A stretch of DNA of 16,650 nt from Planctomycetota bacterium. Its GTDB lineage: Bacteria; Planctomycetota; PUPC01; DSUN01. The notes beneath the pieces are model-generated. The model was given only the letters and a program-made list of their open reading frames with translations, was not told the DNA's origin and made no database searches. The position numbers were made by a program, and so were the translations under genes. Shown in pieces: positions 6,208 to 13,936 of the stretch. How positions within the stretch are numbered: the first letter of the stretch is position 1; each line of letters opens with the position of its first letter. Location of the stretch: NCBI GenBank assembly GCA_016872875.1, contig VGYW01000167.1, positions 1 to 16,650 on the forward strand, written 5' to 3'.

Positions 6208-6236
6208 TTGACATCCTGGTGCGGCGGCGCTACATT
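6208..6236 (+). promoter_or_regulatory. Sigma-70-like promoter for the SMC/ubiquitin-like operon
   Basis: TTGACA (6208-6213) and TACATT (6231-6236) with a 17-bp spacer. The expected start of transcription near 6243 leaves a leader of about 95 nt before the SMC start codon. No repressor operator or riboswitch is recognised in the leader. This is the only strong promoter seen before the operon. Confidence 0.6.
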
Positions 6237-6338
6237 GCGCACTTGGACGTGGGGACCGCCTGCGCGCTTGCACCCCCACACGGCTTGCCGCGATGAACAT
6301 CTGCTGCCCGCGACACGGGTCGCGGTTACGGTGCGTAA

Positions 6339-9281
6339 ATGGCTGACCGCTTCCTGCTCCTCTCGAAGCTGCGGCTTCAGAACTACAAGCTGCACGCCAG
6401 CACCGAGGTTGACCTCGGCGAGCGGCCAATCCTCCTCATCACGGGCGCAAACGGGTCGGGCAAGACCCAGGTGCTGGAGGCGCTCCGCCTCTGCCTGGGC
6501 GTCCACCCGTCGCCCAGCCGCGCCCGCGGGATGGCCTCGGTGATCGGGCCGGCCGCCGACGAGGCGCGCCTGGTGCTCGACGTGCGGAACCCGCCCCTCG
6601 ACGGCGCCCACCGCCTCCTCAAGCCGCCCCACGAGGAGCTCGCCCGCGAGCTCGACCGCGACGTCGTCCGCATCGCCGCCCGCGTGAACGCCTCGGGCAG
6701 CGTCCAGTACCGCGTCGGCGGGCCAGAGCAGGAGTGGCCCACCCGCCAGGTGTCGGGGCAACAGCTCCGCGACATCTTCCGCTCGGCCAACATCCAGGCC
6801 GCCAACCGCCTGGCCTTCACCGAGGAGGGGGTGGTGGACGTCTTCGCGGGCGAGAGCGGCCGCAGGAAGCTCGAGAGCCTCCTCGAGGCCACGGGCCGCC
6901 TCCAATACCTCGAAGACCTCCGCCAGGCACTGGTGCACCTGGAGGACGCGAACCGCCAGACCGAGCCGCTGCGCCAGAAGCTCAAGTGGGAGAGCGACCT
7001 CGTGGCGAGCATCCGCGAGCGGCTCGAGATAATCCGCCAGCGGAGCAAGTACATCGAGCAGCACGCCGCCCTCTGCATCGAGCACGCCTGGGCCATCGTG
7101 CGCGACGCCGAGGCCGCCCGCGACGCAGTGGTGGCGCGCACGGAGCGCGCCGAGGCGCGCCTGGCACGCGTCAGGGCGTCCCTGGCCGATGCGAACGACG
7201 CCCTCGGCCGCGCCGAGGCGGACATGGCCGACCACGCCCGCCGCGCAACCGAGGCCCGCGCCGCCATCACCCGCGAAAAGGGCGCCCTCGAACGCCTCGT
7301 GGGCCAGCGCCTCCACCTCCAGCAGAGCCTGGCCGAGGCCAGGGCGGACCTCCCCCGCCTCCAGGCCGAACGCGACGACCTCGCCCGCATCCTCGCCGCC
7401 GAGAAGGGCAAGGAGAACGCCCAGGCGTTCCAGGAGCGCCAGCGCGAGCTGGTGGCCATCGAGAACGAAATGTCGCGGGTGCACCGCGAGGTGGAGAGCC
7501 TCGACGCCGACCTGCGCTCCGCCGAGGGCGAGGCTGTAGCGGCAAGCGTCCCGCTTGCCGACCGCAACCGGGACGGTTGCGGCTACTACGAGCAGGAGAT
7601 GCTCGACGGCTGCGCGGCGTTCCAGCGCGGGCTGGTCGAGCGCCGCATGCAGGGGCAGCTCATCGGGCCAGTCGTCTCCCTCATCCGCATCAGGGCCGGC
7701 GAGGAGCCGTGGGAGCGGGCGGTCCGCTGCCTGGCGGGCCGCCACCTCTTCGCGTTCGTGGCCCGCGACCGCGATGCCTACGCCGCGGCGAAAGCCCTCT
7801 TCGATGAGCTCTTCCCTCACAGGAAGCCGCCGATCACCATTGTCAGGCGCAGCGATGAGGAGGCGCGGCTCCGCAGGCCGAAGCTGCCGAGGGGAGTCCA
7901 CGGCTTCGCCTTCGACCTCATCGAGGGCGAGGAGCACTGCCTGGGGTTCCTTCGGCGGGTGCTGCATGGCGCCGTGGCCGAGGCGGGCGGCGACCCCAAT
8001 GAGTTGACCGACTTCGCCGAGGGCCACAATTGCCCCGTGCTGACCGCCGACTGCCGGAGCTTCTACGCGCCCTTCGGCGGCTTCACGCGGCCCCCCGCGC
8101 CCATCGCCACCGCGCTCGGCACGCCCATCGCCTCGCCGGATGTAGGCGGGGCGTCTCTGCCCCACGCGGGGCACGGAGGCCCCGCCCACATTCATCGGCT
8201 CCTTCGCCGCCACGCCGAGCTTGCCACCCGAGCACGGCAGCTCGAAGGCGAGCTCCGCAAGCTCGGCATCCGCCCCGAAGTTGCCGAACGCCTCCGAACC
8301 GTCGCCGAACGCATCGAGGGCCTCGACGCCCGCACCGCGCAAATGGCCGCCGCCGACGCCCGCCTGGCCTCGCAGATCAAGGTGCTTCAGGACGCCATCA
8401 ATGAGATGGCCCGCGCCGAGCAGCCCCTGGCGACGAACATTGATGACCTCCAGGCCCGCGTGCGCGACGCCCAGGCCGAGGTGGTCCGCTGCACCACCCT
8501 CATCGCCGAGGAGGAGAAGGTGGTCGCCCGCTTCCACGAGGAGGCGGAGGCTGCCACCACTCAGCTCGAAGCCGCAATCAAGGAGGCCGAGCCGCTGGGC
8601 AAGCGCCCCCCCGAGGTCCGCCTCACCGCGCTCGTCGCACAGGAAAAGGCCGAGGTCAAGGGCAAGCTCGACGCCATCGTGGGCCAGACCGTGGACGAAG
8701 ACAACCTCCGCCGCAAGGAGGAGGAGCTCGAGCAGCTCGAAACCTATGTGGCGGAGCGGACGGGCCACGTGGAGAAGCTCCAGGGCGACGTAGCGGAGCG
8801 GCGCGACATCTGGCAGCGCGAGGTCCGCTCGATGGTCGAGCACCTCTCCCGCGTGATGCAGACGCTGCTCCGAGGCGGCGCGTTCCGCGACGTGCGGCTC
8901 GAGGTCGCTCACGTCGAAGACCCCGACAAGGCGGAGCTGGCCATCCGCGCCCGCACCAAGGGCGCCCAGTGGCTCGACTACCGCGAGCTCTCCGGCGGCG
9001 AAAAAGTCCTCTGCACCGAAGCCCTCATCATGTCGCTCCACACCCTCAGCGACAGCCCCGTCCACGCCATTGACGAGTTCACCCAGCGGCTCGACCGCTC
9101 GAACGCGGCGGCGGCGTTCGACATCGTGCGGAAGACCTTCGAGATGACCTCGCGGGGCCAGCCGCGGCTCGTCCCGCAATTCGTCCTCCTCTGCCCCGAG
9201 GCCTTCGGCCTCGAGGAGAACGAGCTCATCCGACACATCGTCCTCGTGGAGGCGAAGCTCAGAGGACAGGCGCGGAAGTGA
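6339..9281 (+). CDS. SMC-family ATPase, Smc5-like
   Basis: A 980-residue SMC-type protein. Walker A is GANGSGKT (36-43). A Q-loop region with NRLAFTEEGVVDVFAGESG (156-174) precedes a long Ala/Arg/Glu-rich coiled coil (about 195-435). A hinge-like domain follows (about 438-575: LIGPVVSLIRIRAGEEPW, then GRHLFAFVARDRDAYAAAK), then a second coiled coil (about 610-850). The C-terminal head has signature LSGGE (884-888) and Walker B PVHAIDEFTQRLD with D912 and E913. The AIDEFTQRLD segment and the later PQFVLLCPEAF recall the Smc5 pattern (VDEINQGMD and ITPKLL) more than bacterial condensin or RecN. SMC proteins dimerise at the hinge and entrap or extrude DNA. Kleisin- and kite-like candidates follow directly. 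The ATG at 6339 has a weak Shine-Dalgarno. Two palindromic elements are translated in frame at the hinge/coil borders. Confidence 0.88.
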   Translation: MADRFLLLSKLRLQNYKLHASTEVDLGERPILLITGANGSGKTQVLEALRLCLGVHPSPSRARGMASVIGPAADEARLVLDVRNPPLDGAHRLLKPPHEELARELDRDVVRIAARVNASGSVQYRVGGPEQEWPTRQVSGQQLRDIFRSANIQAANRLAFTEEGVVDVFAGESGRRKLESLLEATGRLQYLEDLRQALVHLEDANRQTEPLRQKLKWESDLVASIRERLEIIRQRSKYIEQHAALCIEHAWAIVRDAEAARDAVVARTERAEARLARVRASLADANDALGRAEADMADHARRATEARAAITREKGALERLVGQRLHLQQSLAEARADLPRLQAERDDLARILAAEKGKENAQAFQERQRELVAIENEMSRVHREVESLDADLRSAEGEAVAASVPLADRNRDGCGYYEQEMLDGCAAFQRGLVERRMQGQLIGPVVSLIRIRAGEEPWERAVRCLAGRHLFAFVARDRDAYAAAKALFDELFPHRKPPITIVRRSDEEARLRRPKLPRGVHGFAFDLIEGEEHCLGFLRRVLHGAVAEAGGDPNELTDFAEGHNCPVLTADCRSFYAPFGGFTRPPAPIATALGTPIASPDVGGASLPHAGHGGPAHIHRLLRRHAELATRARQLEGELRKLGIRPEVAERLRTVAERIEGLDARTAQMAAADARLASQIKVLQDAINEMARAEQPLATNIDDLQARVRDAQAEVVRCTTLIAEEEKVVARFHEEAEAATTQLEAAIKEAEPLGKRPPEVRLTALVAQEKAEVKGKLDAIVGQTVDEDNLRRKEEELEQLETYVAERTGHVEKLQGDVAERRDIWQREVRSMVEHLSRVMQTLLRGGAFRDVRLEVAHVEDPDKAELAIRARTKGAQWLDYRELSGGEKVLCTEALIMSLHTLSDSPVHAIDEFTQRLDRSNAAAAFDIVRKTFEMTSRGQPRLVPQFVLLCPEAFGLEENELIRHIVLVEAKLRGQARK
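7536..7586. repeat. In-frame palindromic element within the SMC gene (first)
   Basis: GTAGC...GCTAC outer arms (7536-7540, 7582-7586) enclose two hairpins: CGGCAAGCG/CGCTTGCCG and ACCGCAACC/GGTTGCGG. The segment is translated as AASVPLADRNRDGCG-like residues (about 400-416), a non-helical break in an otherwise coiled-coil stretch just before the hinge. It looks like an inserted short palindrome that kept the frame. Confidence 0.65.
8141..8190. repeat. In-frame palindromic element within the SMC gene (second)
   Basis: Arms TGTAGGCGGGGC (8141-8152) and GCCCCGCCCACA (8179-8190) pair with one mismatch around an inner TGCCCC/GGGGCA hairpin. The segment encodes VGGASLPHAGHGGPAHI, a Gly/His-rich stretch just after the hinge and before the second coiled coil. 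Confidence 0.65.
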
Positions 9282-9291
9282 AGGTAGTGCA

Positions 9292-9384
9292 GGATGAATG
9301 GATGAATGGATGGTTGGATGATTGCCAGAGCGCAGGCTCTCTGTTCCTTCAGACATCCATTCATCCACCCATCCATTCATCCTC
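9292..9384. repeat. GGAT/GAAT-type hairpin repeat, copy C
   Basis: GGATGAATGGATGAATGG-type units, a 30-40 nt loop, then CATCCATTCATCCACCCATCC. It fills the 124-nt gap between the SMC stop codon and the next start. It is related to copies A and B (3921-3984, 4299-4371), but the loop differs. Confidence 0.75.
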
Positions 9385-9405
9385 TTGCAGGACTTGGCAA
9401 CGGCA

Positions 9406-10140
9406 ATGTCACACGTAACCCCACAGCCCGGGGGCCGGCCGCCGGACGATTCGGTGCTCTCCCGCCTCTGGGACGTTGCGCACAAGTACCAGCGGCGGCT
9501 GGCGACGGGCGAGGTGGTGCCGCTTCGGGAGTCGGAGGCCGACCGGCGGGCCGTGGCGCCCTTCGCGCGGCGGCTCTCCACGCCCAGCGAGCGGTCGCTC
9601 GACGGCTTGGCCTACCGCTCGCTCGCGGAGATGCAGGTGCGGCGCGACAGCCGCAGGCTCCTCTCCAACGTGCCGGGCCGCCTGCGCCTCCGTCGTCTCG
9701 GCTTCGAGGTCGCCCTGCGAGCCAAGCCGGCCGTCTTCCTCCACGGGCCGCTGCGGCTCGCCACGAATGGCCTCCTGGCCTCCGTGGGCTTCACGCCCGA
9801 TGCCCTCGAGCCGGGCGACGACGCAGCGGCCCTCCGCGACGAGCTCGACGCGAGCCAATACCGCGTGCGCATGCGCGGCGTGGAGGACGCCGAGCTTGAG
9901 GCCCTTCGCGGCGCGGTGAAGAAGCGGCTCCTCGGCCTGAGGCTCAGGCCCGCCGCGCTCGCGGAGAGCCTGACGAGCGGCGAGGCCGACCTGCTCTCCC
10001 AACTGGTCCGCCGCGGCGAGGTCGCGCTCTTCGCCGACCGCGACGGCAGCATCGAGATACGCGCGGGCGGGGCCAGCCGCTCCGTGCCCAGCACCGTGGT
10101 CGCCCTCTACCCAAGCCGAAAGGGGACGCGAGGTGGCTGA
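9406..10140 (+). CDS. Unknown protein, candidate kleisin of the SMC complex
   Basis: A 244-residue protein that I do not recognise by sequence. The N-terminal part is helical and charged (SVLSRLWDVAHKYQRRL, 16-32; SLDGLAYRSLAEMQVRRDSRRLL, 64-86). The middle holds GRLRLRRLGFEVALRAKPAVFLHGPL. The C-terminal segment LTSGEADLLSQLVRRGEVALFADRDGSIEI (189-218) could form a small winged helix, and kleisins such as ScpA end in a comparable winged helix. Position supports this: it follows the SMC gene and overlaps the kite-like gene by 8 nt, the usual order of kleisin and kite subunits. The ATG at 9406 is preferred because the longer frame from 9322 would begin inside a hairpin repeat. The kleisin assignment is inference; a structure prediction with the SMC heads would test it. 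Confidence 0.6.
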   Translation: MSHVTPQPGGRPPDDSVLSRLWDVAHKYQRRLATGEVVPLRESEADRRAVAPFARRLSTPSERSLDGLAYRSLAEMQVRRDSRRLLSNVPGRLRLRRLGFEVALRAKPAVFLHGPLRLATNGLLASVGFTPDALEPGDDAAALRDELDASQYRVRMRGVEDAELEALRGAVKKRLLGLRLRPAALAESLTSGEADLLSQLVRRGEVALFADRDGSIEIRAGGASRSVPSTVVALYPSRKGTRGG

Positions 10141-10705
10141 CGAGACGCCCGCCGAGCCGCAGCCGCAGGCCCCCGCCGACGAGACGCTTCTGCCCCAGCT
10201 CATGGCCGTCCTCACGGCGCGCTGGCGCGACGAGACCGGGCGGCTGGCGGTCGGCGCGCCCAGGAAACGCCTCCTCGAGGCCCTCCGCGTGGACGACGCC
10301 GCCCTCGACGCGCTTCTCGCCCGCCTGGCCGAGCGCGCGGAGGGCCTCGGCCTGGAGTTCCGCGACTACCGCAGGGCGGGCGACTCCTGGTGCTGCCTCG
10401 CCGCCACCCACGGCGGACCAATCGAGCTGAGCGAGCTCGACCAGGGCGTCCTCGGCCTCATCATCCACCTCGTCCTCAAGAGCGGCCGCCGCCGCGCCGC
10501 GGGCATCGAAGAGCTCCGCGAGACACTCGTCGGCCGCGAATACCTCACCGAAAACCAATTCCAGTCGGTCCTCCGCCGCCTCGAATACCACGGCTACGTC
10601 CACCGCAGCCGCGGCGCCGTGAGCCTCGACTGCCGCACCGCCCTCGAGTTCGACGAGGCGGCGCAGAAGGAGATTGCCGAGCAGGCCAGGTTGCTGATTC
10701 TGTAG
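10133..10705 (+). CDS. Tandem winged-helix protein, candidate kite subunit
   Basis: A 190-residue protein with an acidic, Pro-rich leader (1-18) and two segments that read as winged helices. The first is TLLPQLMAVLTARW...RKRLLEALRV..AALDALLARL (about 18-92). The second is LSELDQGVLGLIIHLVLKS..GIEELRETL..LTENQFQSVLRRLEYHGYVHRS (about 99-168). Two tandem winged helices next to an SMC and a possible kleisin fit kite subunits (ScpB, MukE, and Nse1/Nse3 in eukaryotic Smc5/6). The start is GTG at 10133, overlapping the previous stop by 8 nt, which suggests translational coupling; AAAGGGGA lies upstream. An alternative reading is a stand-alone transcription regulator, which the overlap makes less likely. 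Confidence 0.6.
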   Translation: MADETPAEPQPQAPADETLLPQLMAVLTARWRDETGRLAVGAPRKRLLEALRVDDAALDALLARLAERAEGLGLEFRDYRRAGDSWCCLAATHGGPIELSELDQGVLGLIIHLVLKSGRRRAAGIEELRETLVGREYLTENQFQSVLRRLEYHGYVHRSRGAVSLDCRTALEFDEAAQKEIAEQARLLIL

Positions 10706-10714
10706 GAACCATTC

Positions 10715-10798
10715 CGTGCCCCGTACCGCGTCCCGCGTGCCACGTGCCAAGACAGGAGCTGGCTTCCTCTGAGCACGCGGGACGGGGCACGCGGCACG
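10715..10798. repeat. GTGCC-GCGTCCC-type hairpin repeat, junction 1
   Basis: Left arm at 10715-10748 and right arm at 10772-10798 share the core CGTCCCGCGTGC / GCACGCGGGACG (12 bp perfect, more with gaps). It fills the gap between the kite-like and RING-like genes. Close relatives lie at 11298-11378 and 13145-13214. Confidence 0.75.
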
Positions 10799-10817
10799 CA
10801 TCAAGTGCTGTTCCCCC

Positions 10818-11285
10818 ATGCCCACCGACATCTCGCTCATCTCGATCCGCTGCCTCGGCCACGGCGGCGACATGCTCCTCAGCGAGGCCATCCTCGAGGG
10901 GTGGAAGATGTGCAACGAGTGCCACCTCTTCATCTGCCCCACGTGCGCCGAGGCGTTCCAGGCCGAGAAGGGCGGCTCCTGCCCTGGCTCCCAGGCCCGC
11001 CGCGAGCACAAGATGGACCTCGCTGAGATACCCACCGACGAGGTCATCCTCTTTGTCCAGCACGCGGTTGAGGCGCCGCGGCTTGGGCCGGTCGTCTACG
11101 AGGTCTTCTTCCGCGGGCGGGCGGTCGAGCTCGACCCCTTTGGGGCCGTGCGCCCCCAGCCCGAGCGCCGCACCCCGCCCGACGACCCCCTGGCCATTCT
11201 CCGCCGCGAAGATTGGAAGCGCTACGGGGTCGTCATGGTGAAGCGGAAGAGGGGGCGATATGTCACCTGGGGGCCGGTGAGATGA
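10818..11285 (+). CDS. Small Cys/His-rich protein, candidate RING-like E3
   Basis: A 155-residue protein. Residues 12-64 carry eight Cys/His residues in four pairs: C12-x2-H15, C32-x2-C35, C40-x2-C43 and C55-x8-H64. This count and spacing could hold two zinc ions in a cross-brace like RING, B-box or related treble-clef folds; the ligand order differs from canonical RING. A predicted mixed strand/helix region follows (VVYEVFFRGRAVELDPFG, about 92-109) with a basic C terminus (VKRKRGRYVTWGPVR). Placed between SMC-complex candidates and JAMM/E1/Ubl/E2 genes, it is the natural candidate for a substrate-recruiting ligase. In eukaryotic Smc5/6 the Nse1 subunit carries a RING. E3 function is inferred; a plain zinc-binding adaptor is possible. 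The ATG at 10818 has no strong Shine-Dalgarno. Confidence 0.65.
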   Translation: MPTDISLISIRCLGHGGDMLLSEAILEGWKMCNECHLFICPTCAEAFQAEKGGSCPGSQARREHKMDLAEIPTDEVILFVQHAVEAPRLGPVVYEVFFRGRAVELDPFGAVRPQPERRTPPDDPLAILRREDWKRYGVVMVKRKRGRYVTWGPVR

Positions 11286-11297
11286 GGGCTTGCGCGT

Positions 11298-11378
11298 CGT
11301 GCCGCGTCCCGCGTGCCGCGTGAAGAAGAGGAGGAGTCGATCTTATGTCTTGGGACGCGGCACGCGGGACGCGGCACG
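11298..11378. repeat. Perfect 24-bp inverted repeat enclosing the JAMM gene start
   Basis: The arms at 11298-11321 and 11355-11378 are perfect reverse complements (GTGCCGCGTCCCGCGTGCC type). The 33-nt loop contains AGGAGGAG (11329-11336) and the ATG at 11345. The right arm is translated as residues 4-12 of the JAMM protein. In mRNA this would present the ribosome binding site in a loop. Confidence 0.8.
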
Positions 11379-11917
11379 GGGTCTTCATCCTCCACCGTGT
11401 TGTCGGGGAGGTGCTTGCATTCTGCCGCCGGCGGGAACCGAACGAAGCCCTCGGCGTGCTGGCGGGCCGCCGCTGCCAGCACCAGGGCCGCCGCTACGTG
11501 CGGGTCACTGACTGGGCGACGGGCGGCGTGGACGCCAGCCCCGTCCACGCCCAGCTCACCCCCCAAGGGGTCGTGGAATGCCACGTGGAGCTCGATGAGC
11601 GCTACGGACCGGACCGCAGGCCGCAGATCGTCGGCCTCTTCCACTCCCACCCCTTCGGGGGCGAGCCGGCGCTCTCGGAGCGCGACCTCGCCACCTTCGG
11701 CGGCTTCCCCTACGACGCGGAGGGGAACGTGTTCGTCCTCGTCAACCCGCGCACCGGCCACTTCCTTGTCTTTCAGCGGGAAAAAGACTCCAGGAGTCTT
11801 TTCTGCGAAGCACCCGAAGGGCCGTTCCGGGAAAAGACTCCTGGAGTCTTTTTCCCGCTTGTCGAGCAGGAATGGGTCGAGTATGCCCCAACGGCGCCCG
11901 ATGGCTCCAAGCGATGA
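11345..11917 (+). CDS. JAMM/JAB-domain metallopeptidase, likely Ubl deconjugase or processor
   Basis: A 190-residue MPN+/JAMM peptidase. The zinc site is complete: E34 in NEALGVLAGR, then H100-S-H102-P and S111-x2-D114 in GLFHSHPFGGEPALSERD. In bacterial ubiquitin-like operons JAMM enzymes trim Ubl precursors or remove Ubl from targets. Since the Ubl here already ends in Gly, deconjugation seems the likelier job. The start at 11345 has an excellent Shine-Dalgarno (AGGAGGAG, 8 nt upstream), although the first 12 codons derive partly from a repeat arm. No other in-frame start precedes the conserved domain. Residues about 144-173 (REKDSRSLF...REKTPGVFF) are encoded by a 29-bp inverted repeat and look foreign to the fold. 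The 3' end overlaps the E1 gene by 35 nt, indicating coupling. Confidence 0.9.
   Translation: MSWDAARGTRHGVFILHRVVGEVLAFCRRREPNEALGVLAGRRCQHQGRRYVRVTDWATGGVDASPVHAQLTPQGVVECHVELDERYGPDRRPQIVGLFHSHPFGGEPALSERDLATFGGFPYDAEGNVFVLVNPRTGHFLVFQREKDSRSLFCEAPEGPFREKTPGVFFPLVEQEWVEYAPTAPDGSKR
11775..11859. repeat. Perfect 29-bp inverted repeat inside the JAMM coding sequence
   Basis: Arms 11775-11803 and 11831-11859 are perfect reverse complements around a 27-nt spacer. Each arm is itself almost a palindrome, AAAAGACTCC-A-GGAGTCTTTT. The whole element stays in frame and encodes about 28 residues near the C terminus. Confidence 0.9.
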
Positions 11918-12701
11918 CCGGCAGGACAGGACGCGGCGGTTCTTCGGCCGCCGCGCCCTCGCGCGCATCGAGCGGGCGAGAGTCCTGGTCATTGGCGCGG
12001 GCGCAGTCGGCAACGAGGTGGCGAAGAACCTCGCACTCGTGGGCGTCCGACGCCTCACCCTGGTGGACCCCGACACTGTTGAGCTGTCGAACCTCAATCG
12101 CTGCATCTTCTTTCGCGAGGGGGATGTTGGGCGGAAGAAGGTCCACGTGGCCCGCCGCGCCCTGCGCGCCGCCGCCCCGCGAACCGAGGTCATCGCCGTG
12201 CCACGCCCGATTCAGGACGCGCCGGAGGATGTCTGGGATGCCGACGTGGTGGCGCTCTGCGTGGACGACGAGCTGGCCCGCTACTACACCAATGCCCGGC
12301 TCCTGGGCGAGAGGCGCCCGTTCCCCGTCGTCAACGGCGCGATGGGCCGCACCTGGGCCGAGACGACCGTCCTGGTGCCTGGCCAGACCGCCTGCCTGGT
12401 GTGCCTCTGGAGCCAGGACTACCTCCAAGGCGTGCTCGGCGAGGACGTGCGGCGGCGCTGCGACGCCTTCTTCCAGGCCGCACGCGTGAAATTTCCCGCG
12501 ATTTCTGTCTTGACTTCCCTGGTTGGCGCGCTATCATCAACGGAGGTAGTGAAGCTGCTCGCCCGCTCCCCGCAGGAGCTCCCCGTTGCCGCGGGCAAGC
12601 GGCTCCGCTACGACGTGCGGCGGCACGAGCTGCTCGTTCAGGACATCGTGCCCAACCCGCAGTGCGTGGACGCGATGTGTAGAAGAAAGCGTGATACGTG
12701 A
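11883..12701 (+). CDS. E1-like (ThiF/MoeB-type) Ubl-activating enzyme
   Basis: A 272-residue adenylating enzyme. The Rossmann nucleotide loop is VLVIGAGAVG (34-43). The signature VDPDTVELSNLNRCIFF (61-77) with N70, N72 and R73, then DVGRKK (81-86), matches the ATP-binding core of ThiF/MoeB/E1 proteins. A likely structural zinc site is formed by C171-x2-C174 and C261-x4-C266. C193 in RRRCDAFF is a candidate thioester cysteine in the crossover loop region. The reaction would be adenylation of the Ubl C-terminal Gly and transfer to E2. The ATG at 11883 is chosen (AGGA about 12 nt upstream, inside the JAMM gene); 11901 is an alternative. The last codons (CGT GAT ACG TGA) lie in the GTGATACGTG-type repeat after the gene. 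Thiamine or cofactor synthesis roles are less likely next to an E2. Confidence 0.88.
   Translation: MPQRRPMAPSDDRQDRTRRFFGRRALARIERARVLVIGAGAVGNEVAKNLALVGVRRLTLVDPDTVELSNLNRCIFFREGDVGRKKVHVARRALRAAAPRTEVIAVPRPIQDAPEDVWDADVVALCVDDELARYYTNARLLGERRPFPVVNGAMGRTWAETTVLVPGQTACLVCLWSQDYLQGVLGEDVRRRCDAFFQAARVKFPAISVLTSLVGALSSTEVVKLLARSPQELPVAAGKRLRYDVRRHELLVQDIVPNPQCVDAMCRRKRDT
12510..12537 (+). promoter_or_regulatory. Possible internal promoter within the E1 gene
   Basis: TTGACT (12510-12515), 16-bp spacer, TATCAT (12532-12537), in a stretch noticeably lower in GC than the rest of the gene. It would give separate expression of the Ubl gene starting at 12818. It could also be chance within coding sequence. 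Confidence 0.3.
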
Positions 12702-12769
12702 TCCGTGATGCGTGAGAGGAAGATGAGAGCTCGGCTTACTCTTCTCACGTATCACGTATCACGCATCAC
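12691..12769. repeat. GTGATACGTGATC-type hairpin repeat, E1/Ubl junction
   Basis: The left arm is made of GTGATACGTGATCCGTGATG-like 7-8 nt units (12691-12720) and the right arm of the complementary CACGTATCACGTATCACGC units (about 12741-12769). The stop codon of the E1 gene lies within the left arm. It is a different family from the GTGCC-type repeats at neighbouring junctions, but it sits in the same kind of place. Confidence 0.75.
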
Positions 12770-12817
12770 CTGTCCCGCATCCCCGCGTTCCGCGGCCCAA
12801 GCCAAAGGAGAAAGACG

Positions 12818-13132
12818 ATGAGCGATTCCCCAACCCAGGCCGAGATTCTGGTGGACGTGGAACCGGCCAACAAGACCTTCCGCATCCGGGTGGAGAACGC
12901 CACGACGGTGGCCGACCTGGTGAACGCGGTGCTGGAGCGGTGCGAGGCGGACGGCATCAACGTGCGCCGCTGGGCGCGCGACCGAGTTGGGCGCGAGAAC
13001 GTCTCGCTCGTCCTCATGCGGAAAGCCCAGGGCAGCGCCGCGCTCCCGCCCACCATCGAGTTCGGACGCATCGAGCCCGTCGTCCAGCCCGACGAGCGCT
13101 TCAGCCTGGACGCGACCGCGATTGTGGGATGA
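12818..13132 (+). CDS. Ubiquitin-like (beta-grasp) modifier candidate
   Basis: A 104-residue small protein between the E1 and E2 genes. The pattern fits a beta-grasp fold: strand pair AEILVDVEPANKTFRIRV (8-25), helix TVADLVNAVLERCEADG (30-46), strand NVSLVLMRK (61-69), then late strands ending FSLDATAIVG. The protein ends in Val-Gly with the Gly as the very last residue, so the reactive C terminus would need no trimming; the usual Gly-Gly is absent. Sequence similarity to ubiquitin itself is weak, and the call rests on size, secondary-structure pattern, terminal Gly and context. The start is firm: AAAGGAG precedes the ATG at a normal distance. It has the strongest ribosome binding site of the operon, as would suit a modifier needed in excess. 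Confidence 0.75.
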   Translation: MSDSPTQAEILVDVEPANKTFRIRVENATTVADLVNAVLERCEADGINVRRWARDRVGRENVSLVLMRKAQGSAALPPTIEFGRIEPVVQPDERFSLDATAIVG

Positions 13133-13144
13133 CGAACCGTGCCG

Positions 13145-13214
13145 CGTGCCGCGTCCCGCGTGCCAAGACCTGCGAGCGCGCCTTCTCCTTTCCTGGCACG
13201 CGGGACGCGGCACG
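13145..13214. repeat. GTGCC-GCGTCCC-type hairpin repeat, Ubl/E2 junction
   Basis: Arms 13145-13165 and 13194-13214 are perfect 21-bp reverse complements around a 28-nt loop. The core is the same as at 10715-10798 and 11298-11378, while the loops differ, so the arms are conserved and not the whole element. Confidence 0.85.
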
Positions 13215-13243
13215 GGGGACGGAACTCACCGTAGGCTCGGCCC

Positions 13244-13936
13244 ATGCTCCATTTCCCCACGAGGGTTTTCAACGAGCGGATCGCCGTCTTCGTGGACAGC
13301 TTCTACGAGGAGCTCGCGCGGCTCTACCGCGCCCAGGGCTGGGGCTGGGAGCAGCCGGTTCGTAGCGCGGCCTCAAGGCCGTACAATGACGGGCTAAAGC
13401 CCGCACTACGAGCTCCTGCCGCCTGGCAACACCCAGACTTCGCAGTCCGCATCGCCGCACGCCACAAGGACGGCGCGGCGCGAACCATCGAGCTCAAGGC
13501 CAAGAACCTGCCGGGGGTTCGCAACGTTGACGACGGGGGCAAAGTGGCCCTCAGCCGCGACCACACCTTCCGCGTGGACATCCCGCGCAGCTACCCCAGC
13601 AACCTCGGCGACATCGCGGTCCGGGCGACCACCACCCTCTACCACCCGCGTCTCGGCCCCTCCGGACGCGGCCACGCCTGCGTCTTCGTCAACGGCGAGA
13701 TCGACCGCGTCCTCTGGAGCATCGTCCGCCACGTCCTGCTCGACCCCGCCTACGTGCAGCCGCCCCGGCTCTTCCGCGGGGTTGACCGCGGGACCAACCT
13801 CATGGCGATGGCCTGGTACGAGGCGGACCCGCAGGGCATCCACAACCGCCTCCTCGACCTCTGGGCGGAGGCACACGGGGCCAAGAAGTTCCAGGCCGCC
13901 GCGCAGAAGGCGGGCGGCGTGAAGATTGATGCGTGA
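13244..13936 (+). CDS. E2-like Ubl-conjugating enzyme
   Basis: A 230-residue protein whose centre follows the E2/UBC fold. HTFRVDIPRSYP (107-118) corresponds to the strand and YP turn of E2s. TTTLYHPRLGPSGRGHACVFVNGE (129-152) corresponds to the HPN region and active-site loop, with HPR in place of HPN and C146 as catalytic cysteine. LWSIVRHVLLDPAYVQPPRL resembles the E2 helix after the active site. An N-terminal helix (FNERIAVFVDSFYEELARLYRA) precedes the fold. The missing Asn of HPN could change how the oxyanion is supported. Residues about 40-56 come from an inserted palindrome. The ATG at 13244 has a weak Shine-Dalgarno but lies just after a hairpin repeat, as for other genes here. With E1 and Ubl directly upstream the assignment is strong. 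Confidence 0.85.
   Translation: MLHFPTRVFNERIAVFVDSFYEELARLYRAQGWGWEQPVRSAASRPYNDGLKPALRAPAAWQHPDFAVRIAARHKDGAARTIELKAKNLPGVRNVDDGGKVALSRDHTFRVDIPRSYPSNLGDIAVRATTTLYHPRLGPSGRGHACVFVNGEIDRVLWSIVRHVLLDPAYVQPPRLFRGVDRGTNLMAMAWYEADPQGIHNRLLDLWAEAHGAKKFQAAAQKAGGVKIDA
13361..13410. repeat. In-frame palindromic element within the E2 gene
   Basis: Ends CGTAGCG (13361-13367) and CACTACG (13404-13410) form near-perfect terminal inverted repeats. Inside are two hairpins, CGGCCT-CAA-AGGCCG type and CGGGCT-AAA-GCCCG. It is translated as RSAASRPYNDGLKPALR between the N-terminal helix and the E2 core. Confidence 0.75.

Follow-up and report, generated by a model that had tools for sequence, protein, structure and literature searches.

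A planctomycete operon that sets a Smc5/6-type SMC gene beside a predicted complete ubiquitin-like conjugation pathway, with counterparts in Asgard archaea

The stretch of DNA analysed here (the window) comprises positions 1 to 16,650 of contig VGYW01000167.1 from a Planctomycetota bacterium (assembly GCA_016872875.1), the plus strand of which carries eight genes at positions 6339-13936. An earlier note, made from the sequence, had read these genes in the order SMC ATPase, possible kleisin, kite-like protein, RING-like protein, JAMM peptidase, E1, ubiquitin-like protein (Ubl) and E2, and all eight open reading frames (ORFs) were found where it had placed them. At position 6208, from which the note had counted the operon, a short ORF of a different frame begins (6208-6543) that overlaps the SMC gene, which itself starts at 6339. 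The genes are:

6339..9281, plus strand: SMC ATPase of a Smc5/6-type family, 980 residues (Pfam SMC_N 6e-20; best PDB profile match Smc6)
9406..10140, plus strand: gene 2, predicted kleisin, 244 residues (N-terminal domain of helices, then a disordered linker and a winged helix at the C-terminus)
10133..10705, plus strand: predicted kite, a winged-helix protein of 190 residues (8-base overlap with gene 2)
10818..11285, plus strand: RING-like zinc protein, candidate E3, 155 residues (conservation; weak RING/IBR/FYVE/B-box matches)
11345..11917, plus strand: JAMM metalloprotease, 190 residues, predicted to process or deconjugate the Ubl (Prok-JAB 1.2e-8; Rpn11 best in PDB)
11883..12701, plus strand: E1 with ThiF/UBA-type adenylation domain, 272 residues (ThiF 2.8e-45; UBA6/UBA1 best in PDB; 35-base overlap with the JAMM gene)
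12818..13132, plus strand: Ubl, 104 residues, Val-Gly C-terminus (AlphaFold2 beta-grasp fold)
13244..13936, plus strand: E2, 230 residues, catalytic-type Cys146 (codon 13679-13681) after HPR (PDB profile matches; alignment)

Direct Pfam and NCBIfam scans of the window yielded clear names for the SMC, JAMM and E1 products only, as gene 2, the kite, the RING-like protein, the Ubl and the E2 stayed below every cut-off of both collections. The unnamed ORFs were nevertheless taken to be real genes, because conserved relatives of each occupy the same place in other genomes: 24 homologues of the RING-like protein share 68-91% identity with it, and orthologues of the unnamed genes were also found in Asgard archaea. 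The closest relatives of the SMC protein (22 matches, 65-84% identity) belong to planctomycetes where named, as does L001 in the tree, which by itself makes a planctomycete origin of the window most likely.

The SMC protein of the window possesses an intact Walker A motif (TGANGSGKT, 6441-6467), LSGGEK and Walker B (IDEF) near its C-terminus, and a weak Pfam hinge match was obtained at residues 441-544. When a profile built from an alignment of 20 family sequences was run against PDB, five Smc6 sequences came out on top with 107-121 bits, as compared to at most 60 for Smc1-4, 61 for bacterial Smc and 42 for Smc5, while a canonical SMC profile used as control yielded the reverse order (Smc1-4 353-462 bits, Smc6 97). 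The kinship to Smc6 rests on this control, because Thermococcus SMC scored 117 bits with the family profile and thus nearly equals Smc6. These profile scores support that the SMC of the operon is of the Smc5/6 type and Smc6-like rather than Smc5-like; hence, of the label "Smc5-like" in the earlier note, the assignment to the Smc5/6 type stood, and the Smc5 part was weakened by the low Smc5 score. A protein search with the SMC alignment, in which 7994 candidates were scored, retrieved mainly the close family and canonical SMCs, separated by a gap from at least 749 to at most 117 bits, the Asgard relatives lying outside the matches listed for it. In a tree covering the family and canonical SMCs, the 49 family members formed one group against eight canonical SMCs (SH-aLRT 100). 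Within it, planctomycetes fall into two clades and Asgard archaea into several; the tree does not order the deep forks, where long branches meet, and hence gives no position for the planctomycete clades with respect to those of the Asgard archaea. The window holds one gene of this family, and a single match (E <=1e-60) was likewise found in 41 of 45 Asgard genomes, the remaining four showing two partial matches on different contigs that are apparently pieces of one gene.

For the tagging pathway, alignments were inspected that comprised 15 of 17 JAMM, 14 of 15 E2 (the partial L013 being left out), 14 of 14 E1 and 15 of 15 Ubl sequences. The JAMM protein retains its active-site residues (H100-S-H102-P, S111, D114), and its family matches Rpn11 best in PDB. 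The E1 keeps GAGAVG, four cysteines of zinc-binding type and an invariant C193 (12459-12461), which is the candidate catalytic cysteine; UBA6 and UBA1 are the best PDB matches of the family, whose relatives include ThiF and MoeB. For the Ubl, AlphaFold2 predicted a beta-grasp (pLDDT 87.9) and a fold search returned ubiquitin and SUMO as matches, which strongly argues for a ubiquitin fold at the level of the model. By sequence the Ubl profile gave no match in PDB up to E 5, and the Pfam scan of the window protein gave no PF00240 match and Rad60-SLD at 0.2 only. The Ubl domain ends in Val-Gly, not Gly-Gly, in 15 of 15 members. All 28 PDB matches of the E2 family profile at E <=1 are E2s (best 0.0016), Pfam UQ_con was found in six of 14 family members, and C146 of the window protein is intact. 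The readings of these four genes as JAMM, E1, Ubl and E2 were thereby supported. About 16 extra residues of the window E2 (13360-13414) are lacking in the other 13 alignment rows and perhaps stem from an in-frame repeat insertion.

A separate observation concerns the junction of the Ubl and E2 genes, which are separate and without frameshift in the window. In six planctomycete relatives (L043, L064, L065, L067, L068 and L069) the Ubl frame extends into the E2 N-terminus, and the remainder of the E2 is encoded in the -1 frame (L043:15914-16878 for the region in L043). In five of the six, all but L067, a run of 9 or 10 A is located 37-38 codons past the Ubl end; in L067, CCCTTTC precedes a stop, 35 codons past the Ubl end. 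Besides the run at the junction, the 22.6 kb of L043 contain no A or T run of eight or more, and the AT-richer contigs L081, L087, L088 and L089 each contain 9-14 such runs. Judged from these sequences, a programmed -1 frameshift (or slippage) is a plausible reading of the junction and would yield a fusion of Ubl and E2 that the protease could then cleave, with homopolymer sequencing error as rival explanation for the five A-run junctions and less so for L067.

The three genes between the SMC and JAMM genes were more difficult to assign. Fold search with gene 2 identified the Smc5/6 kleisin as best match by a small margin, and its domain layout is that of a kleisin. In PDB, the gene 2 profile found no matches besides Nse1 (E 0.087) and one ribosomal protein, and Pfam scans of the single members revealed nothing coherent; the kleisin call therefore rests on fold and position, and the modelled fold weakly suggests that gene 2 encodes the kleisin of the SMC complex. 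A GINS-like N-terminus is a conceivable further reading, though no GINS entry was among the fold matches listed. Members of the kite family yielded weak Pfam matches to MarR_2, MksE, SMC_Nse1 and MAGE, and SarA in PDB, which hints at a likeness to Nse1, MAGE/Nse3 and MksE; thus the single kite gene of the operon weakly resembles both the Nse1 and the MAGE profiles. The RING-like protein has a ligand pattern of eight positions (C12-x2-H15, C32-x2-C35, C40-x2-C43, C55, H64), and its family's weak RING, IBR, FYVE and B-box matches faintly suggest a RING-class protein and with it a candidate E3. The alignments used covered 28 of 37 gene 2 ORFs and 26 of 35 kite ORFs found, and the kite and E1 rows of L038 carry N-terminal extensions from outside the gene. 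The corresponding calls of the earlier note thus obtained weak backing, from the fold of gene 2, the Nse1/MAGE/MksE matches and the RING-class matches respectively.

Searching reference genomes with the SMC alignment identified 50 loci, which belong to Planctomycetota and to Asgard archaea, among the latter mostly to Heimdallarchaeota and Hermodarchaeota. The full order from SMC to E2 is identical in the window, in the Asgard loci L002, L003, L005, L014, L019 and L037 (its contig being cut inside the SMC gene) and in the planctomycete locus L043. Where 2.1 kb or more of sequence follows the SMC gene, gene 2, kite and RING-like gene adjoin it in 30 of 30 Asgard and three of five planctomycete loci. 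In the Hermodarchaeota loci L007, L009-L011, L015 and L042, one strand carries SMC, gene 2, kite and RING-like gene, and the opposite strand Ubl and E2 together with a second RING-like gene; JAMM and E1 are located farther upstream, except in L009, where the contig ends. Asgard proteins share 17-49% identity with those of the window, too little for the shared operon to be a product of recent transfer. The surroundings of the Heimdallarchaeota loci are common across loci, with several neighbouring gene clusters found in 6-10 loci each.

Several further features were observed around these loci. The second RING-like gene of the Hermodarchaeota is shorter and stands beside the E2 gene (L007:8006-8389, minus strand, and likewise in L009, L010, L011, L015 and L042); in L011 it is adjoined by a transglutaminase-fold gene (L011:6258-7907). 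A family beside the RING gene occurs in seven Hermodarchaeota loci, its L007 member (L007:14764-15732, minus strand) being a histone deacetylase, and a family upstream of JAMM in five loci, its L007 member (L007:3530-5005) matching ResIII and Helicase_C. A ninth gene, small in size (about 100 residues), begins directly where the E2 gene ends in six loci of the Heimdall type; its member in L002 (L002:15958-16272) gave no Pfam match. Within the window, hairpin repeats occupy four of five operon gaps (9291-9383, 10715-10798, 11298-11378 and 13137-13222), with related sequence in three, and a further one is located within the JAMM gene, at its 3' end (11755-11879).

Co-occurrence was followed across 227 Asgard and 392 Planctomycetota genomes. 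The SMC profile (E <=1e-60) matched in 45 Asgard and nine Planctomycetota genomes and the E2 profile (E <=1e-3) in 19 and eight, whereby all 27 E2-bearing genomes lie among the 54 SMC-bearing ones and none of the 565 SMC-less genomes gave an E2 match. For Asgard archaea this amounts to 19/45 SMC-bearing versus 0/182 SMC-less genomes and for Planctomycetota to 8/9 versus 0/383 (Fisher p 1.1e-15 and 7e-16), values that are too small because the genomes are related and partly incomplete. First-look candidates were scored in part, up to seven per genome for the planctomycete E2, three for the Asgard SMC and two for the planctomycete SMC; many positive genomes were first reached via the SMC search, the genome draws were independent of the SMC, and G300 came independently. 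This genome possesses SMC, E2, RING, JAMM and E1, and a search of it for kite and kleisin found neither. In the planctomycetes G020-G023 all eight genes are present at about six separate places (SMC alone, kleisin-kite, RING, JAMM, E1 and Ubl-E2). G019 has SMC, kleisin, kite and E1, with no match for E2, Ubl, RING or JAMM. In G026, the genome of L001 with SMC to JAMM in order, the operon contig ends after JAMM, a piece of E2 lies on another contig and neither E1 nor Ubl was matched. As to general ubiquitin, PF00240 was found in 19 of 23 genomes (19/20 Asgard, 0/3 planctomycetes). G001-G003 encode the dedicated Ubl plus PF00240 ubiquitin, the latter as a separate gene on other contigs.

Considering known systems, the single parts of the operon belong to known superfamilies. 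Bil/Bub and type II CBASS operons likewise combine E1, E2 and JAB protease with a Ubl, a feature shared here, but in the present operon E1 and E2 are separate proteins. To our knowledge, those operons include no SMC complex, and no CBASS nucleotide cyclase or effector was matched among the eight products or the four flanking window genes (Pfam for the flanks). Wadjet (JetABCD) also unites SMC, kleisin and kite in one operon, yet this operon has another SMC type and adds the tagging pathway; the JetD Toprim nuclease subunit gave no match within that same gene set. Sulfur carriers such as ThiS and MoaD end in Gly-Gly and work without E2, unlike the Val-Gly Ubl with its E2. The Asgard/Caldiarchaeum ubiquitin operon (ubiquitin, E1, E2, small RING, Rpn11) offers the same enzyme classes including a Rpn11-like JAMM, but its modifier is PF00240 ubiquitin. 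The term "SMC" is absent from the main text of the Asgard ubiquitin-ESCRT paper (Hatano 2022) and from the 2006 survey of prokaryotic ubiquitin relatives. Archaeal "SMC5/6-related" SMC proteins are already in print (Yoshinaga and Inagaki 2021, as described in PMC9389158) and probably form the same or a neighbouring SMC family; neither "ubiquitin" nor "operon" occurs in the main text of PMC9389158. Eukaryotic Smc5/6 (Smc5, Smc6, the RING-kite Nse1, the kite Nse3, the kleisin Nse4 and the SUMO ligase Nse2) shares a Smc6-type SMC and a link to ubiquitin-family tagging and, as far as the weaker matches go, probably kleisin-like, kite-like and RING-like parts. It differs in that the operon has one SMC gene (likely a homodimer), one kite gene and the RING on its own protein, adds its own E1, E2, Ubl and protease, and shows no Nse2 or Nse5/6; Nse2/Mms21 gave no Pfam match among the eight products. 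Among the titles and abstracts found in open-licence literature without preprints, none describes an SMC complex equipped with a dedicated E1-E2-Ubl set, which does not prove novelty. No system known to us, in any domain, combines an SMC complex with a modifier, E1, E2 and protease of its own.

Based on this, the eight genes are considered, with good though not full confidence, to form a prokaryotic Smc5/6-like machine which equips proteins at DNA with a ubiquitin-like tag of its own, the union that the earlier note had read from the window and to which the tests point, some strongly and some weakly. The observed gene set, order, co-occurrence, motifs and SMC family, together with the predicted folds of kleisin and Ubl, would fit the following assembly, ligase activity, substrates and purpose. 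Two copies of the single SMC would close into a ring via the kleisin (gene 2), which would also hold the kite, and ATP would power the capture of DNA, as it does in other SMC-kleisin-kite complexes. The E1 would adenylate the C-terminal glycine of the Ubl and hand it to Cys146 of the E2, whereupon the RING-like protein, residing on the SMC core like the Nse1 RING in Smc5/6, may direct the Ubl-loaded E2 towards proteins on this DNA. The complex itself may likewise be a target, the kleisin first, by analogy with Nse4; in PMC8750328, Nse1 is described as a ubiquitin ligase which is stimulated by Nse3 and Nse4 and modifies Nse4. The JAMM protease would serve as eraser and may also trim the Ubl where it is made with a tail. 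As purpose, genome maintenance is most likely, i.e., action at stalled forks, recombination intermediates or protein roadblocks.

Some findings weigh against this proposal. This E2 is missing in 26 of the 45 SMC-bearing Asgard genomes, so that the dependence is one-way and the co-occurrence expected in the earlier note held for E2 (matched in 0 of 565 SMC-less genomes) and not for SMC. Furthermore, 15 Asgard genomes with SMC, gene 2, kite and RING-like gene have neither the dedicated E2 nor the Ubl, which speaks against a fixed unit; 14 of these encode PF00240 ubiquitin (no match in G014). The Thermococcus score would count likewise if the family profile stood alone. As a side observation, a second, weaker PF00240 match (27-32 bits) was noted in 11 of these 15 genomes (G006-G012, G015-G018).

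Defence against phages or plasmids, in which the SMC complex would sense foreign DNA as do Wadjet and human Smc5/6 and the tag would disable phage or plasmid proteins in the manner of Bil-type systems, is an improbable purpose, albeit one to be taken seriously. Operons of Ubl, E2, E1 and JAB serve in bacterial defence, and the SMC family is patchy in Planctomycetota (nine of 392 genomes). The window SMC matches the PADLOC ATPase models mad3 (2.1e-25) and LmuB (1.2e-23), though SMC-like ATPases generally do so. SMC complexes, too, are described to serve in bacterial defence (PMC10586767). However, no Toprim JetD, nuclease, cyclase or membrane killer was matched among the eight products, and scans of four genes flanking the operon in the window revealed metabolic functions or a sensor kinase (minus-strand URO-D, xylose-isomerase-like TIM barrel and PAS histidine kinase; a further URO-D downstream). 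In a viral collection 87 stretches matched a pattern, of which nine were confirmed that align over 40-70 residues only, i.e., short ATPase fragments. Repair and defence, both offered in the earlier note, are not settled between them, but maintenance is preferred because the Heimdallarchaeota surroundings are stable, unlike mobile defence islands, and no effector was seen.

That two independent modules happen to lie side by side, one being an SMC complex and the other a set of E1, Ubl, E2 and JAMM that serves sulfur transfer or the quality control of proteins, is regarded as very unlikely: the Asgard genomes without E2, or without both E2 and Ubl, would agree with it, as would ThiF and MoeB among the E1 relatives, but the E2 was found in none of the 565 genomes without the SMC and the genes are kept within a genome even when unlinked, and sulfur transfer needs neither E2 nor JAMM. 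Least credible of all is a purely structural, chromosome-folding SMC whose Ubl pathway has no outside substrates and regulates only how much of the complex is present or how it is loaded, since a full E1-E2-Ubl-JAMM set across two domains of life would be a large cost for self-regulation, even though the core persists where E2 is absent and the first known Nse1 substrate in the fission yeast complex is the kleisin Nse4 (PMC8750328).

Returning to the tagging machine at DNA, it probably predates eukaryotes. Asgard archaea are the closest known relatives of eukaryotes, and it is tentatively suggested, as a possibility somewhat short of an even chance, that eukaryotic Smc5/6 has in this operon a prokaryotic forerunner or a sister, in which the SMC ring came with a ubiquitin-like tag of its own from the outset. 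The Asgard branch Heimdall group 2 would then have lost the dedicated E2 and Ubl, with SMC, kleisin, kite and RING persisting alongside general ubiquitin, and eukaryotic Smc5/6 and its Nse1 ligase could stem from such a state. The origin of Smc5/6, and why it carries ubiquitin-family ligases unlike cohesin and condensin, is an open question, and a Smc6-type SMC with a dedicated tag in Asgard archaea and planctomycetes would put that link before eukaryotes. If true, this would be the first known prokaryotic SMC complex with its own tagging pathway, and a small eight-protein version that could be rebuilt from purified parts.
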